64,000 bases of DNA from Paludibacteraceae bacterium. GTDB lineage: Bacteria > Bacteroidota > Bacteroidia > Bacteroidales > Paludibacteraceae. Positions 51,975 to 62,055 of the stretch are shown here, in pieces. Made by a program: the position numbers and the translations under genes. Position 1 is the first letter of the stretch. The number at the start of each line of letters is the position of its first letter. The notes beneath the pieces were generated by a model. That model did not search any database. It was not told where the DNA came from and was given only the letters and a program-made list of their open reading frames with translations. The stretch is taken from positions 1-64,000 of the forward strand of contig JAFGVL010000105.1 of the NCBI GenBank assembly GCA_016938015.1. Direction: 5' to 3'.

Positions 51975-53531
51975 TTATTTCTTTTTTACACGCTTTCCTT
52001 TTTTTGTTTTTTGGGGCAATGCGTAACGGGTAAAAATATCGTGTTTGTTTTTGGGACGGATAGTATCTTGCCAATGAAAATTTTCCAACTGTTTTTTATC
52101 GTCGGGTATTTGAAGTTCGGGATATAAAACGCCGGAAGAACTGGGAGAAAGCACTATTTTATCTATTTTTCTGTTTCTTACATGTACCACCAGTGTACTG
52201 CTTTCCGTTCGGTTCATGCCAATTAAAGTACCATCCTGCTCTCGTGGATAATAAATAGACTCAGCATTGCCTTCAACAAGAATTTTATACAGCACTTTAT
52301 CTTTTATAAAAGCTTTTAAACTTTTACCGGAGAGTTGACTAAAACGTAAACTATCTTCCTGAATAAGACCCATTGCTTTGCCTTGCACCCACACCATACT
52401 GGAATCTTTTGCCAATTTAAATACTTGCATAAAATTGCCGGAAAGCTGCATGGTATCGGACCATATTACAGGACTTTCATACATACTCAACAACGAGTCG
52501 CGGGTAGAATAAATGAGCGTATCACATTTTCCTTGTAAATTTGAGCGATAAAAACGCACATTACTAACCGCTTTTAACCTATTATACACAGAATCGGCTT
52601 GAGTACGCAAGGTATCGGCATGTAAAAAAAGTGTGTCGTTTTTGTCGGAATATTCAGTTGCATAAGCAGAATCGCGCACTAAACCAAAGCGATCCAGCTC
52701 ACGGTAATACCCATAATTTCCGTAGATAGTAATTTGTTGTGCCGTATCGATAAGTTGTACATGCCCCCAAGCTTGCCCCTCTCCTTCTTTTTTTTGGTAA
52801 AAAATAGTATCGCCTACCAACTTTTTACCATCTATTTGCTCGATGTATGAATTTTTATATAATTGCGATTTTTCATGTTGCGTATCGTACCAGCCATCTT
52901 CGGAATAGATAGTTGTTTTTTCTTTGTACAAAATTAGTGAAGGGCCTATAATATAAGCTATTTTAGATTGCGTGTTGTATTTCAAATTATTTGAACCCAA
53001 GCCAAACTCATCGTTAACCAAACGCACTTGCTCTCTAAATACCGACATTTTTGTACTAGGAGAATACTCACCCCAAATAGAGGTAAGTACATTTTTTTTA
53101 TCGTAAATTTTACCTCCTGTGTAGTAATAGCCTTTGTTTTGGTTTCTGTCGTAATCAAAACTATCTGTTTCGAGCGTAGTTTCACGGTTTATCATACGCA
53201 CATTTCCTTTTAAATGAGCTATTCGAGTATCGCCATTGTAATGCAAAAAATCTCCATACACAAAAAGCGTATCTCCTTGTTGCATACGTATATTACCAAA
53301 GGCATCAATGGTATTATTTTGGTCGTAGAAATAAGCGCTGTCGCAATACATGTAGGCATTATCATGACGAAATACTACATTTCCGCGCAATACCTGACAA
53401 TCAGCGTTCATTTTCTTGTCGAAAGAAAGTGTTTCTGAACGCTCAAGAACGATAGTAGTAGGTTTAGCACCCTGAGTGAAATTAGCCGAAAGGATAAAAA
53501 CAATAAAAAGGGCTATGTATTTGCGAAGCAT
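51975..53531 (-). CDS. OstA/LptA-like periplasmic protein
   Basis: Signal peptide; ADCQVLRGNVVFRHDNAYMYCDSAYFYDQNNTIDAFGNIRMQQGDTLFVYGDFLHYNGDTRIAHLKGNVRM. Confidence 0.87.
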   Translation of the reverse strand: MLRKYIALFIVFILSANFTQGAKPTTIVLERSETLSFDKKMNADCQVLRGNVVFRHDNAYMYCDSAYFYDQNNTIDAFGNIRMQQGDTLFVYGDFLHYNGDTRIAHLKGNVRMINRETTLETDSFDYDRNQNKGYYYTGGKIYDKKNVLTSIWGEYSPSTKMSVFREQVRLVNDEFGLGSNNLKYNTQSKIAYIIGPSLILYKEKTTIYSEDGWYDTQHEKSQLYKNSYIEQIDGKKLVGDTIFYQKKEGEGQAWGHVQLIDTAQQITIYGNYGYYRELDRFGLVRDSAYATEYSDKNDTLFLHADTLRTQADSVYNRLKAVSNVRFYRSNLQGKCDTLIYSTRDSLLSMYESPVIWSDTMQLSGNFMQVFKLAKDSSMVWVQGKAMGLIQEDSLRFSQLSGKSLKAFIKDKVLYKILVEGNAESIYYPREQDGTLIGMNRTESSTLVVHVRNRKIDKIVLSPSSSGVLYPELQIPDDKKQLENFHWQDTIRPKNKHDIFTRYALPQKTKKGKRVKKK

Positions 53532-53586: not shown

Positions 53587-54954
53587 TTATTTTTTTACCC
53601 ATCCCTCGTATTGGAACTTACAATTTTGCCATTCGGGATTAATTTTAATATACGTTTCCTTTTGTTTGTTTTTAACCCAATTATTAATTGTTTCGGCATT
53701 TTGTCTGTTTTGAACAAAAACCTTTAAAAGCTGATAATCGGTTTCTAAATTAGCTTTGTGTTGGGCAATTTTTGCTTTTACTTTAATAACGGCACACACT
53801 TTTTTACCGGTTTGGTCGGTCATGATAAACGGTTTAGAAAAATCGCCCACTTCCATATCATACGCTAATCTGGAGATTTCGGAAGGTAAGTGTTGGTATT
53901 CAAATTGAGTGGTACCATCTTGTGGGTTTACCATAATTCCGGCACTCATACGGGTATTTTTATCGTCGGAATAATTTAAGATTGCATCTTCAAACTTAAT
54001 TTTACCTTCTCTAACAAAAGACATAATACTATCAAGCCTTGTTATCGCTTTGTTTTGGTCTTCTAATTGAGGTTTTGGTTTTATTAAAATATGACGAACA
54101 TTTACTTTATCACCTCTTTTGGCAATAAGCTGAATAATATGGAAACCAAATTCGCTTTCTATGATACGCGAAACTTTTTTAGGGTCGGTTAAGCTAAAAG
54201 CCTCATCGGCAAATGGTTTTACCAGCTGACCTTTACCCATAAAACCAAGTTCTCCTCCTTGTTTAGCCGATTCTACATCGTCGGAGTAAAGCATTGCCAG
54301 CATAGAAAAAGTAGCATCGCCCGTTTCAATTCTTTCTTTAAACCCACGTAATCGTAATTTGATTGCTTCTACTTCAGATAAAGCAATTCTAGGTTCTTGA
54401 GTTAAAATTTGCACTTCTACTTTTGCGGGAATAATAGGAATATCTAAACTATCGATTTTTGAAAAAGCTTTTCGAACCTGCGAAGGCGAAATTTTTTGAT
54501 CTCCAATAAGCTTTTGTTGAACCTGTTGCACTAAACTTTGTTCGCGAGCCTGCTCCCTTAAATCTTCTTTTATTTGTTTCAACGATTTTCCGTAATACTC
54601 TAACAGTTTTTCTTCGGAACCTATTTGTGCAATTATTTCGTTTACTCGTTGTTCAACCTGCATAGTAATTACACCCTCGTTAGCCTCAATACTATCTAAT
54701 TTTGCTTGGTGCAAAAATAATTTTCTAATAGCCAATTGCTCCGGAACTACGCAATAAGGATCTCCATCCATATCTACTTTTTCATATTTCATCTGCATAA
54801 TTTGCTTTTCAACATCAGAACGGAGTATGGCATCGTCGCCAACAACCCATATTACTTCATCAATAACATCTTGTTGTGCCACTGCTAAAGTTGGTGCGAA
54901 CATTAGCACTAAAAAAATCCACATTGTATATGGTGTAAGCTTCTTGTTTTTCAT
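53587..54954 (-). CDS. SurA-like periplasmic peptidylprolyl isomerase
   Basis: VIDEVIWVVGDDAILRSDVEKQIMQMK; parvulin DVESAKQGGELGFMGKGQLVKPFADEAFSL; GFHIIQLIAKRGDKVNVRHILIKP. Confidence 0.92.
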   Translation of the reverse strand: MKNKKLTPYTMWIFLVLMFAPTLAVAQQDVIDEVIWVVGDDAILRSDVEKQIMQMKYEKVDMDGDPYCVVPEQLAIRKLFLHQAKLDSIEANEGVITMQVEQRVNEIIAQIGSEEKLLEYYGKSLKQIKEDLREQAREQSLVQQVQQKLIGDQKISPSQVRKAFSKIDSLDIPIIPAKVEVQILTQEPRIALSEVEAIKLRLRGFKERIETGDATFSMLAMLYSDDVESAKQGGELGFMGKGQLVKPFADEAFSLTDPKKVSRIIESEFGFHIIQLIAKRGDKVNVRHILIKPKPQLEDQNKAITRLDSIMSFVREGKIKFEDAILNYSDDKNTRMSAGIMVNPQDGTTQFEYQHLPSEISRLAYDMEVGDFSKPFIMTDQTGKKVCAVIKVKAKIAQHKANLETDYQLLKVFVQNRQNAETINNWVKNKQKETYIKINPEWQNCKFQYEGWVKK

Positions 54955-55098: not shown

Positions 55099-56001
55099 TT
55101 ATTCCTGTAATTTTGGTTCCGACTCTTGAGAAAAGAATATTATTTTTTCTTTATCAATAGCTTCTTGGTATAACTTATCGTTTAATTTTTTAATAAAATC
55201 GGTTTTTTCTTTATTCATTAATAAAACGTGAATTTTATCTTTTGCCAGTTCAAAAGGTTCCGTTTCGCCCGCAAATTTAACATCAAGTATGCGTAAAATA
55301 TAATGATAAGCTGTATCTTTTACTTCGATGTATCTATTTGCTCTTAAATAACTGTCGGCATTTTCCAATTGAATAGGCATATTTTTAGTCACTTCCAAAA
55401 ACTTCACCCATCTATCACCAAAATACTGATAACTGGTCGCATTTTGAATACCATATTTTTCAACTTCTTCAATAGATTTTGCTTTATAATTACGCATCCA
55501 ACCTTGTAGTTTTGAAAACTTTGGAGCTCCTAGAGGCACTTGTATATATACCCCTTTTATAATTGAATTTTTTAATACAAACTTTTCTTGATGACTGTTG
55601 TAAAAAGCTTCTAATTTTTTATCTGAAAGCACATCCGCTAAACGCTCACGTATTAGGTTTTCTTGGTATTGATGTATGATTAACGATCTGCGGTAATCTT
55701 CCACCAGCTTATCAATTTTTTCTTGGTCGGAAATATTTTTACTGGCATGCTCGTACAGCAACACATTGGTTGCCCATTGTTGTGCAAAATCGTCAGCAAG
55801 TGCGGTACTATCTTCTTGCGAAGCCATATCAGGTATAACCGCATCAATATCTTCCATATACAAATACCTGCCGCCTACTTCTAAATAAGGAACTCGTGTT
55901 GCATCCATTTTTTCTTTTTCTTGGCAAGAAAAAAACAAGATACAGCTTAATACCACACACAATGTGCTTTTCTTTATTGAAATTGGGTAACGCACCATCA
56001 A
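55099..56001 (-). CDS. lipoprotein of the PpiC/SurA-like chaperone type
   Basis: Lipobox-like VLSCILFFSCQEK; helical SurA-N-like region; overlaps the upstream PPIase by 4 nt. Confidence 0.7.
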   Translation of the reverse strand: MMVRYPISIKKSTLCVVLSCILFFSCQEKEKMDATRVPYLEVGGRYLYMEDIDAVIPDMASQEDSTALADDFAQQWATNVLLYEHASKNISDQEKIDKLVEDYRRSLIIHQYQENLIRERLADVLSDKKLEAFYNSHQEKFVLKNSIIKGVYIQVPLGAPKFSKLQGWMRNYKAKSIEEVEKYGIQNATSYQYFGDRWVKFLEVTKNMPIQLENADSYLRANRYIEVKDTAYHYILRILDVKFAGETEPFELAKDKIHVLLMNKEKTDFIKKLNDKLYQEAIDKEKIIFFSQESEPKLQE

Positions 56002-57928: not shown

Positions 57929-60031
57929 TTACAATAGAATAGAATAACCCAATCCGAAAGTAATATACTCTGCCGTTAGCATATGAGTTTTAAGCGCAAC
58001 AACTCCAAACAAACCATTTGTAAATCGGTATTTCATTGCTAATCTGAAATACGTATTGTTCAAAAATTGATAGTCGTAATTATACTGTGGTTGTATATTA
58101 TCATAAAAATAATACCCACCATCAATTGCTGCAGTTACTCGTCCTAACACAAACTCGTTGGATAAACAGCCACCTCCTCGAATGCGTTGTTCAAACTTAT
58201 CAGGATCCATACGGGTGGTAAAAAAGTTAGCATAGGCATTGGGGTAAGCTGTGTGGGTATCTGCAAAAGCATCGTCGTAAAAACCATCAACACCCAAACC
58301 TATACGGTAAATATTTGCCGCTTGAAAATACAAACCTAGGTTAATATTTCCTACCAAGTATTGCTTAGTATCAAAACGATTCATTTCACGCATAAAGGCA
58401 GATCCCATAATATCTAAGGTAAAGTACTTAGGTAATGGTTCACCCGAAGCTCTAACCACAGGGGTTAAAACACTAGGACAATATTTCATGCCTAATTCGG
58501 CGGTAAACATATTTAAGCCGTTGTTAGGAGATGCAAAATTACCATTAGATAAGTGAGTCATGTACGCACCCAGCGAGAATGAATAATGCGATAAAGCATC
58601 TTGACGTTGGTTGGAAATATTAGTAAAAGGACGAATAACTAAATTGAAACCTCCTTTTATATATACATTGATAGGAGAACCAAACATGGGTGTAATCTCT
58701 GCTACAGGTATACTATCGTTATTTGTTAGCGATTGTTTATTCCATTTGGTAACATAACTAGCTCCAAAACCTGCTGTTAAGTTAAAGTCCACCGGATCGG
58801 TACTTAACAATGGAATATCTACATATGGATAAATGGCAAAAGCCGAACCGAGTAAAGCCTCGTTGCCCAAGTTTAAGTAAGTAAAACCTAAACCGGTAGT
58901 AGGCACATTAAAATAATGATGCCAGTTTTTACTGCCAACAGTAGGCCATTCTACACAAAACTCAGCTCCTAAAACAGGGCGTAAAGAAGCACCGGTTAAA
59001 TAGCTCTTTTGTTCAGCTTCGTGTTGGTAAATTTTTCCGGCTATTAAATTATATTTATACTGACGTGGTTTGTCGTATATTAAATCGCTGGTTAAACCTA
59101 CATTTTCGTAATCGCTGTAAGATTTTGGGGTGTTATCTACCCGCTCGTATCGAGGAGCTGCGGTTACCGATGCTAGATCTACATTCGACCAATTATTAGA
59201 GGCATTTTCGTATTTATTGGCTTTGTTTTTTGAAGGAGATCCTCCATCAAGCCAAAGGCCTCCACCCGATTTAACACCTGCACGACCCGAACCGCTTGAC
59301 CAGCTATCGTTTGCTTTGCCTTTTCCGCCTCTGGAAGAGCCACCTGAATTATCAGCCCAAATACCTCCACCTTTACCAACTTTGGCACTAGTACCTGAAT
59401 TTGCAGCAACCCACGAATCATTTGCACGACCACGACCTCTATTAGTTCCTCTTTTCGAACTACCATCCCAATCGTTATATGCACTGGAGTAATCTACTTT
59501 TAGCTTACGTTTTCCATCGCTGGCAGTCCATGTACCTCCGGATTTTTTACTCTTATTTCGTGAATTAGAATTATCGGCAAAGGGATCATATCCTCCTGCT
59601 CCGGCTTTGCCACGTTTTTTATTTCCTTTTTCATCAAAAGGATCATAACCTCCAGCGGAAGTTCTTCCTTTGTATTTTCCTTTTTTATCGTTTGAGGCAA
59701 AAGGGTCATATCCGGCACCACCTTTTTTCCCTTTTTTATTTTTTTTATCATAGTCGGCAAAGGGATCAAAGCCTCCGGCATTAGAACTTTTTCCTCCCGA
59801 CGAAGCAAAGGGATCAAAACCTTGAGAAGAACCACTTCTTTTACGTTTTGTTTTTTTGCCTCCTCCTATTGAGTATAAAGAACCATTACCCGATCTTTTG
59901 CCGGTCATTTTAGCTGACTTTTGTTTTCTGGCTTGATTTCTACCTTTAATAGAACAGTCTTCGCCTAAACATTGAGCACTTAAGTTAAAGCTTATAAGAG
60001 ATGCAATAAATAAAATGAGGTATTTTTTCAT
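57929..60031 (-). CDS. exported protein with GFDPF/GYDPF low-complexity repeats fused to a lipid A deacylase (PagL/acyloxyacyl hydrolase)-like beta-barrel
   Basis: Signal peptide MKKYLILFIASLISFNLSAQ; five DPF repeats; C-terminal THLSNGNFASPNNGLN resembles the PagL H-x-SN..PN.G.N catalytic region. Confidence 0.75.
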   Translation of the reverse strand: MKKYLILFIASLISFNLSAQCLGEDCSIKGRNQARKQKSAKMTGKRSGNGSLYSIGGGKKTKRKRSGSSQGFDPFASSGGKSSNAGGFDPFADYDKKNKKGKKGGAGYDPFASNDKKGKYKGRTSAGGYDPFDEKGNKKRGKAGAGGYDPFADNSNSRNKSKKSGGTWTASDGKRKLKVDYSSAYNDWDGSSKRGTNRGRGRANDSWVAANSGTSAKVGKGGGIWADNSGGSSRGGKGKANDSWSSGSGRAGVKSGGGLWLDGGSPSKNKANKYENASNNWSNVDLASVTAAPRYERVDNTPKSYSDYENVGLTSDLIYDKPRQYKYNLIAGKIYQHEAEQKSYLTGASLRPVLGAEFCVEWPTVGSKNWHHYFNVPTTGLGFTYLNLGNEALLGSAFAIYPYVDIPLLSTDPVDFNLTAGFGASYVTKWNKQSLTNNDSIPVAEITPMFGSPINVYIKGGFNLVIRPFTNISNQRQDALSHYSFSLGAYMTHLSNGNFASPNNGLNMFTAELGMKYCPSVLTPVVRASGEPLPKYFTLDIMGSAFMREMNRFDTKQYLVGNINLGLYFQAANIYRIGLGVDGFYDDAFADTHTAYPNAYANFFTTRMDPDKFEQRIRGGGCLSNEFVLGRVTAAIDGGYYFYDNIQPQYNYDYQFLNNTYFRLAMKYRFTNGLFGVVALKTHMLTAEYITFGLGYSILL
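59222..59821 (-). repeat. intragenic repeat region encoding (F/Y)DPF and GG(T/I/L)W / NDSW units
   Basis: gcaaagggatcaaa/cata-cctcc repeated in DNA at about 59580-59820; five DPF and three GG-x-W units in protein. Confidence 0.85.
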
Positions 60032-60129: not shown

Positions 60130-60852
60130 ATGATTGTTTTACTAAAAAAAGAATTGCGCAGCTTTTTCAGCTCTGCCACAGGATACATAGTGATAGGTAT
60201 TTTCCTGCTTTTTACAGGTTTGTTTTTATGGGTATTTCCGGGTCAATATAACATACCCGAATCAGGATATGCACAACTGGACGGGCTTTTTGAATTAGCT
60301 CCGTGGTTGTTTTTATTTTTAGTTCCTGCAGTAACCATGCGTATGTTTGCCGAAGAAAAACGCAACGGCACCATCGAACTATTGTACACAAAACCATTAA
60401 CGGGATTAGAAATTGTTCTTGGAAAATACTTAGCTGCAGTGGTACTGGTTCTGCTTGCGCTTTTACCTACTCTTATCTATTTTGGCAGTGTTTATTACTT
60501 GGCCGAACCTTTTGGTAATGTTGATACAGGAGCTTTTTGGGGTTCTTTTATCGGGTTGTTTTTTTTAGCCGCTATATATGTTGCCATTGGCGTTTTTTGC
60601 TCGTCGATTAGCAATAATCAAATAGTATCGTTTATTACCGCCGTTATTATGTGTTTTTTTATTTATTCCGGTTTCGATTTAATCGGGTCGTTATTTTCTT
60701 CAGGAAAAACCATTACCTTTATATCATCCATAGGCATCAATGCTCATTATGAATCGATGAGTAGAGGAGTAATTGATAGTAGAGATGTACTTTATTTTTT
60801 AAGTGTAAGTGCCTTGTTTATTTTTGGAACTAAACTAACTATAAAACAATAA
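60130..60852 (+). CDS. gldF: gliding motility-associated ABC transporter permease GldF
   Basis: LKKELRSFFSSATGYIVIGIFLLFTGLFLWVF; VPAVTMRMFAEEKRNGTIELLYTKPLTGLEIVLGKYLAA. Confidence 0.93.
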   Translation: MIVLLKKELRSFFSSATGYIVIGIFLLFTGLFLWVFPGQYNIPESGYAQLDGLFELAPWLFLFLVPAVTMRMFAEEKRNGTIELLYTKPLTGLEIVLGKYLAAVVLVLLALLPTLIYFGSVYYLAEPFGNVDTGAFWGSFIGLFFLAAIYVAIGVFCSSISNNQIVSFITAVIMCFFIYSGFDLIGSLFSSGKTITFISSIGINAHYESMSRGVIDSRDVLYFLSVSALFIFGTKLTIKQ

Positions 60853-60986: not shown

Positions 60987-61751
60987 ATGCCTCTTATTTT
61001 AATATCCAACGATGATGGTATAACTGCAAAGGGAATTCAGTCTTTGATTGAAAGCATGCGCCCTTTGGGATCTGTAATAGTTGTAGCTCCAGATAGCCCG
61101 CGTTCAGCACAATCGAGTGCTTTAACTGTTACGACTCCTCTTCGTGTAAAAAAAATTCATGAAGAAGAGGGTTTAGTACAATATATTTGCAACGGCACGC
61201 CATCAGACTGCGTGAAATTAGCCTTAAATCAACTTTGTCCGAGAAAACCCGATATAGTAGTTGCCGGTATTAATCACGGCACAAATTCTTCTATCAGCGT
61301 AATTTATTCAGGTACAATAGGAGCTACCATTGAAGGATGTGTTAACGGAATACCTTCAATAGGCTTCTCATTATGCAATTTTGACCCTCGAGCAGATTTT
61401 AGTACCGCCATGATTTATGCTCAAAGAATAACCAAAAAAATAGTTCAAGAAGGACTTCCAAAAGGTATTTGTTTAAACGTAAACATACCCGATTTAAAAA
61501 CTATTAAAGGCATAAAAATTTGCCGCCAATCGGAAGGATATTGGTCGGAAGAGTTTATTAAACGCGAAGACCCTTACGGAAAGCATTATTATTGGCTTAC
61601 GGGCGAATTTATAAATGCCGAAAAACTAAATGACGACACCGACGAATGGGCGTTAGAAAACGGCTATATTTCCATTGTACCGGTAAAAGTTGACATGACA
61701 GCTTATGAATACATCAACGACTTAAAAAAATTAGATTATGAGCAAGAGTAG
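60987..61751 (+). CDS. surE: 5'/3'-nucleotidase SurE
   Basis: ILISNDDGITAKGIQSLIESM; VVAPDSPRSAQSSALTV; CNGTPSDCVKLAL; VVAGINHGTNSSISVIYSGTIGATIEG. Confidence 0.98.
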   Translation: MPLILISNDDGITAKGIQSLIESMRPLGSVIVVAPDSPRSAQSSALTVTTPLRVKKIHEEEGLVQYICNGTPSDCVKLALNQLCPRKPDIVVAGINHGTNSSISVIYSGTIGATIEGCVNGIPSIGFSLCNFDPRADFSTAMIYAQRITKKIVQEGLPKGICLNVNIPDLKTIKGIKICRQSEGYWSEEFIKREDPYGKHYYWLTGEFINAEKLNDDTDEWALENGYISIVPVKVDMTAYEYINDLKKLDYEQE

Positions 61752-62055
61752 TTGGAACAATGAAACAGATGGCAACGGACGAGATAACTTTTGGATGGGA
61801 TTTATTCCTTCATTTATACTTCCATTTATTATATTGGTTATTATTTTTAAAACTAAATACACTACAGAAAAACCTTTATTTGAAGCTTTGTATAAATTTT
61901 CGGCAACCGGCTTATTAGGAAAAGACCTTTTAGCAAGTACTATTATTTGTTTTGTGTTGTTATTTGTATTTAATATACTCAAAAAAGAACGCGCCAGTAT
62001 GGGTGCTTTTGTTGGCGTAGTACCTTATATTATTTTAACTTTTTGGATTATGTAA
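61738..62055 (+). CDS. small conserved-type membrane protein of unknown function
   Basis: Two or three TM segments; overlaps the surE 3' end by 14 nt, suggesting translational coupling. Confidence 0.75.
   Translation: MSKSSWNNETDGNGRDNFWMGFIPSFILPFIILVIIFKTKYTTEKPLFEALYKFSATGLLGKDLLASTIICFVLLFVFNILKKERASMGAFVGVVPYIILTFWIM

Follow-up and report, generated by a model that had tools for sequence, protein, structure and literature searches.

A basic, low-complexity N-terminal arm gained once on a PagL-like outer-membrane barrel in two genera of Paludibacteraceae

Introduction

The PagL family (PF09411) is widespread in the Bacteroidota, where we found it in 103 of 199 genomes of the phylum, and its members there tend to be interpreted as enzymes that deacylate lipid A. 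One such gene, in a stretch of 64,000 nucleotides from a Paludibacteraceae bacterium (contig JAFGVL010000105.1; hereafter "the window"), encodes a barrel of this family behind a long, lysine- and glycine-rich arm with repeated (F/Y)DPF and tryptophan motifs. A first-pass annotation, made from the letters of the window, described this arm as a basic, disordered periplasmic or surface module attached to a lipid A-modifying or structural barrel. This raises the questions of where the arm comes from, what it may do, and whether the name of the family still describes the proteins that carry it.

Results

Layout of the armed protein

The boundaries of the reading frame given in the first-pass annotation are exact; the strand, left unstated there, is the minus strand, and the product has 700 residues (Table 1). 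From the N-terminus it consists of a signal peptide, the short box QCLGEDCSIKGRNQA, the DPF units, the Trp motifs and, from residue ~320, the barrel. All of the repeats that had been described, i.e., five DPF units followed by GGTW, GGIW, GGLW and NDSW units, were located by a motif scan: FDPF at residues 72 and 88, YDPF at 108, 129 and 148, GGTW at 165, NDW at 186, NDSW at 204 and 241, GGGIW at 221, GGGLW at 256 and NNW at 279. Three features are additions to that earlier description: the conserved box QCLGEDCSIKGRN, a second barrel half and, among related proteins, a decay of the catalytic motif. The signal peptide is assigned to type I, and a lipoprotein is ruled out, because the first Cys has a Gln at position -1, at odds with a lipobox. 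An antisense frame at 59130-59492 (+) is an apparent by-product of the Gly-rich codons.

Table 1. Features of the armed gene and of its neighbours in the window (residues are those of the 700-aa protein).
Feature	Positions	Strand	Basis and remarks
Whole ORF, armed PagL-like outer-membrane protein, 700 aa	57929..60031	-	ORF call and Pfam
Signal peptide, type I, residues ~1-19	59975..60031	-	Sequence; cleavage site inferred; model helix 4-21
Mature N-terminal box QCLGEDCSIKGRNQARKQKSAKMTGK, residues 20-45, with CxxxxC pair	59897..59974	-	Alignment of arm-bearing relatives
(F/Y)DPF array, residues 71-164, five units, Lys/Gly/Ser spacers	59540..59821	-	Motif scan; predicted disordered
Trp-motif array (GGTW, NDWDG, NDSW, GGGIW, NDSW, GGGLW, NNW), residues 165-283	59183..59539	-	Predicted disordered
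First barrel half, residues 324-517, strands 1-8, with the bulk of the PF09411 match (361-515)	58481..59062	-	Pfam and model
PagL signature H493-L-S495-N496-GNFASPNNGL-N507	58511..58555	-	Alignment; Asn507 at the PagL Glu140 position
Second barrel half, residues 537-699, strands 9-16, without a Pfam family of its own	57935..58423	-	Model
KTHxxxAE motif of the second barrel half, residues 681-688; K681 and H683 invariant	57968..57991	-	Alignment
PPIase with two parvulin domains, 633 aa	55998..57899	-	Pfam; co-oriented, 29 bases downstream of the armed gene; adjacent in every arm-bearing locus
PPIase-like lipoprotein, 300 aa, chaperone cluster	55099..56001	-	Pfam
SurA-like PPIase, 455 aa, chaperone cluster	53587..54954	-	Pfam and neighbourhood comparison
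OstA/LptA-like protein, 518 aa, chaperone cluster	51975..53531	-	Pfam and neighbourhood comparison
GldF equivalog (TIGR03518, E 3.7e-98)	60130-60852	+	surE directly after; next gene not gldG

The barrel and its catalytic residues

That the barrel is PagL-like, as the first-pass annotation had suggested, was supported by an HMM search: residues 361-515 match PF09411 with an E-value of 3.2e-9 (37.5 bits against a curated cut-off of 23). All 29 aligned barrels match the same family (best E 4.7e-13, in a check that allowed E-values up to 10). Among the sequences of the PDB, the barrel profile has PagL (2ERV) as its sole match, a weak one (E 0.62). The aligned stretch places the family HxSNGxxxxPNxGxN on HYSNAGLKQPNDGIE, so that three residues, His, Ser and Asn, agree with PagL, whose Glu has Asn as its counterpart here; in the window protein H493, S495 and the adjoining N496 are all present, within THLSNGNFASPNNGLN (residues 492-507). 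Glu140 of PagL is reportedly catalytic. Its position is occupied by Asn in 28 of the 29 barrels, including that of the window, and by Ala in L040. Short PF09411 proteins of this phylum (~180-220 aa), which end just after the signature, mostly have Asn at this position as well, and some have Asp. Consequently, the absence of the acid does not by itself show inactivity, and the Asn was dropped as proof of it; judged from these sequences, an acidic residue at the Glu140 position appears not to be a strict trait of PF09411.

The HxSN motif is intact throughout the window's genus. In six proteins of the arm clade (L035-L040), which form a supported clade of their own (100/99), the Ser of the signature is replaced by Asn, Cys (three), Gly or Asp, and the residue equivalent to E688 is Asp. 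These six provide a natural series of likely pseudo-enzymes, with the Ser replaced by four different residues within one clade. The earlier designation of the barrel as lipid A-modifying is, therefore, borne out in part: the window protein has its His, Ser and Asn, and from their sequence the barrels of the window's genus may act as lipid A deacylases, while the Asn at the Glu140 position and the loss of the Ser in six members of the clade speak against it.

The AlphaFold2 model of the 391-residue barrel (29 sequences; pLDDT 80.5, pTM 0.72) has 16 strands, twice the number of PagL. The HxS motif closes predicted strand 7, the signature Asn opens strand 8, and an invariant second His, that of KTHxxxAE, closes predicted strand 15. 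The top PDB matches of this model in Foldseek are OmpF, OmpG and FadL, with a TM of only 0.15-0.25 and an rmsd near 20 Å, evidence that speaks against a single closed, porin-like barrel of 16 strands. The model would also agree with two units of eight strands each, of which the first is the PagL unit; in an hhalign comparison of the two halves for a tandem duplication, which was not significant (E ~0.15), the two His are in register. The motif K[TS]H....AE occurs near the C-terminus in the second half of long Bacteroidota PF09411 proteins (the window protein and L079-L084). No family model was found that covers this second half, and the short PF09411 proteins are devoid of it. Within PF09411, the barrel of the armed protein is an ordinary member of this long-type branch from Bacteroidota (~370-415 aa).

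Composition and conservation of the arm

Residues 20-310 contain 18% Gly, 14% Ser, 14% Lys and 6% Arg, giving a net charge of ~+30. The five [FY]DPF motifs are far above chance expectation: when the 291-residue arm was shuffled 20,000 times, 19,984 of the shuffled arms had none and 16 had one. No DNA tandem repeats were detected behind the DPF units by TRF (score 30), which rules out a recent DNA tandem array. The full-length structure prediction gives a pLDDT <50 for residues 34-321, apart from single residues, and no strand, which, coming from nine sequences, is weak evidence of disorder; together with the charge it supports the earlier description of a basic, disordered module. The arm has no match in Pfam, NCBIfam or the PDB, and the armed protein matched no known peptidoglycan-binding family. 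A known domain or a common linker, a possibility raised for the DPF repeats in the first-pass annotation, is ruled out by this lack of matches and because the array is confined to two genera (see below).

The arm is visible in nine proteins (those of the window, L032-L036 and L038-L040; in L037 the contig truncates the gene and the arm is not visible). Its length varies between 153 and 302 residues, its composition is of low complexity, and the number of DPF units is five in six of the proteins and four, two (L039) and one (L040) in the others, which indicates that a large array is not essential. Despite the drift of the spacers, the net charge stays between +24 and +36 and the content of Lys+Arg between 18 and 22% in all nine arms. 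The sequence QCLGxDCSIKGRNxA is invariant in all arm-bearing relatives, as are WD, GGG and DPF positions, among others. Between the proteins of the window and L032, amino acid identity is 86% in the motifs, 85% in the box, 79% in the barrel and 58% in the spacers, with dN values of 0.09, 0.08, 0.16 and 0.40, respectively, a comparison that is qualitative because dS is saturated for this pair. As far as these alignments tell, the motifs are held and the spacers drift yet stay basic. The invariant mature N-terminus also contains a CxxxxC pair, possibly for a disulfide loop or for covalent attachment to a partner.

Distribution, origin and gene neighbourhood

A scan of genome contigs yielded 30 loci, nearly all from Paludibacteraceae or other Bacteroidales, and most of their proteins are armless and ~400 aa long. 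The arm profile matched 10 of 200 Paludibacteraceae genomes, all belonging to two genera, that of the window (g1) and g16, and revealed no second arm gene in the window's own genome. A search for the N-terminal box found it in only two of 295 Bacteroidales genomes (the own genome and G018) and, among 398 genomes of the phylum, in the own genome only. In the genomes surveyed (200 Paludibacteraceae and ~690 other Bacteroidales/Bacteroidota) the arm is always fused to a PF09411 barrel; beyond the fully read loci, arm matches lie in open frames that span 327-663 aa, and most of these frames could hold both an arm and a barrel. Its bearers are gut and freshwater Bacteroidales. In a maximum-likelihood tree of the barrel, all ten rows of the arm clade fall on one side of a branch with a support of 100/100, so that one change is needed. 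The arm arose once, in the ancestor of the two Paludibacteraceae genera. The fusion of arm and barrel was not found in the family libraries, the PDB or the open-licence papers searched. The architecture is new and lineage-restricted; the barrel family was already known.

A divergent gldF adjoins the barrel gene in nearly all loci, with surE and lpxB behind it; in the window, surE takes the place directly after gldF where gldG, the usual partner of gldF, might be looked for. The interval between surE and lpxB holds a gene for a 105-aa membrane-like protein (61738-62055, +) with no family match above cut-off, which is kept in most arm-bearing loci. The SurA/PPIase/OstA cluster adjoins the gene in 9 out of 9 arm-clade loci and, within the DNA fetched, in none out of 21 armless loci. 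Even in L035, where the gene order is rearranged, the PPIase cluster is still close, whereas in two armless relatives with single-contig genomes the SurA gene lies 1.5 Mb (G004) and 1.1 Mb (G026) from the barrel gene. The arm was acquired, and its gene came to adjoin the PPIase cluster, on the same branch; as this counts as a single event, the link is suggestive only. The parvulin match of the PPIase-like lipoprotein is under the Pfam cut-off (E 0.0014), and from its sequence this protein is possibly a chaperone without isomerase activity.

Discussion

We tentatively propose that the arm is a disordered, polybasic array for multivalent docking or tethering in the periplasm, carried by a long-type PF09411 barrel and gained once, a reading to which we attach slightly less than an even chance. 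The ancestor of the two genera would have acquired a disordered polybasic arm of ~150-300 residues at the N-terminus of its barrel; the barrel would most likely anchor the arm in the outer membrane and let it hang in the periplasm. An arm N-terminal to an even-stranded outer-membrane barrel is expected in the periplasm. Given the even strand count of the barrel that follows the arm, this location seems more likely than the "surface module" considered in the earlier description. The FDPF/YDPF, NDxW and GGGxW motifs on their Lys/Gly/Ser spacers, together with the CLGEDCSIKGRN box, would then form a multivalent array for a periplasmic partner, with the PPIase chaperones of the operon as first candidates and peptidoglycan or LPS as second. 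The docking or tethering reading was chosen because a basic disordered chain with repeated aromatic motifs looks like a docking array; what it binds may be peptidoglycan, LPS or a protein, and gene linkage and the character of the motifs make the operon's PPIases the leading candidate. Against this reading it may be held that operons can stay stable for unrelated reasons.

Charge might also suffice. As an electrostatic tether, the polybasic chain would bind a polyanion of the periplasm, be it peptidoglycan, the phosphates of LPS or some other one, and tie the outer membrane down, its aromatic motifs adding general stickiness. The charge that all nine arms retain though their spacers drift, a length sufficient to cross the periplasm and the envelope-gene setting formed by gldF, surE and lpxB are consistent with such a tether, which we nevertheless deem rather unlikely: charge alone does not need exact DPF, NDxW and CLGEDCSIKGRN sequences, yet those are best conserved, and no known peptidoglycan-binding family was matched. 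It is still less probable, in our view, that the barrel would be an active lipid A 3-O-deacylase and the arm a means to place, gate or regulate it. Such an enzyme would agree with the PF09411 match above cut-off, with the His, Ser and next Asn found across the window's genus, the window protein included, and with the LpxB and OstA/LptA homologues in the vicinity. Since short PF09411 proteins usually have it too, Asn in place of Glu140 need not mean inactivity. That same Asn in 28 of the 29 barrels nevertheless weighs against it, as do the six arm-clade proteins that lost the Ser and kept the barrel and, wherever the contig shows it, the arm as well. Since the arm persists in proteins that lack the catalytic Ser, a functional Ser nucleophile cannot be a requirement for it; deacylation by the barrel, if any, would not be the reason why the arm is retained, and the arm is probably a docking or tethering device and not an aid to catalysis. 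Moreover, Porphyromonas gingivalis, a much-studied member of the Bacteroidales with respect to lipid A, is reported to be without a PagL-like gene (PMC12704123), so that we found no Bacteroidales precedent for a deacylase.

The low complexity of the arm, its variation in length (153-302 residues) and repeat number (1-5) and its confinement to two genera could also point to a fast-evolving insertion with a spacing role only. We consider this very improbable: the arm has a single origin and was retained over long branches, its box is invariant, and dN is four times lower in the motifs than in the spacers. The conservation of the motifs, as read from the alignments, thus disfavours a mere low-complexity insertion.

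Comparison with known systems places the docking or tethering array in context. PagL of Pseudomonas aeruginosa (PDB 2ERV) shares with the armed protein a significant Pfam match, HxSN followed by PNxGx, and the placement of this motif, from where strand 7 ends to where strand 8 begins, but it has 8 strands in ~150 aa as opposed to 16 predicted strands in ~390 aa, and the armed protein differs further in its Asn for Glu140, its N-terminal arm and the loss of the Ser in part of the clade. The armless long-type PF09411 proteins of Bacteroidota (~370-415 aa), commonly annotated as acyloxyacyl hydrolases, have the whole barrel including KTHxxxAE, and those from Bacteroidales share the gldF-surE-lpxB neighbourhood; they possess no arm, however, and the SurA/PPIase cluster is not adjacent. 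Eps15 and epsin are eukaryotic disordered chains in which many DPF/DPW motifs serve multivalent docking. Their likeness to the arm, disordered and with numerous DPF or W motifs in both cases, is one of working principle only, without homology and in another compartment, with another partner and in another domain of life.

SurA binds the peptide WEYIPNV and aromatic motifs, with a preference in Escherichia coli for Ar-X-Ar and Ar-X-Ar-X-Pro (PMC11401910). The arm resembles these peptides in its aromatic pairs with a nearby proline, and SurA/PPIase genes are part of the cluster of the armed gene; the peptides, however, represent model OMP clients and not a resident array, and the motif of the arm is Ar-D-P-Ar, similar in kind to those preferred by SurA yet different from them. 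A more specific version of the docking reading, which we regard as distinctly unlikely in this full form, would have the arm act as a resident landing pad, anchored in the outer membrane, that gathers SurA-type PPIases through its tandem aromatic-Asp-Pro-aromatic motifs, the barrel having turned into a non-catalytic anchor in one sub-lineage. If true, this would be an undescribed kind of scaffold for outer-membrane biogenesis.

For the family, the retention of the barrel and its new arm after the loss of the catalytic Ser means that the name of PF09411 should not be taken as a function. To the extent of our searches, the long Bacteroidota branch of PagL, which has a second half and a conserved KTHxxxAE motif of its own, is uncharacterised too. 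Should the arm recruit chaperones or tie the envelope together, it would constitute a new way of organising the outer membrane of Bacteroidota.
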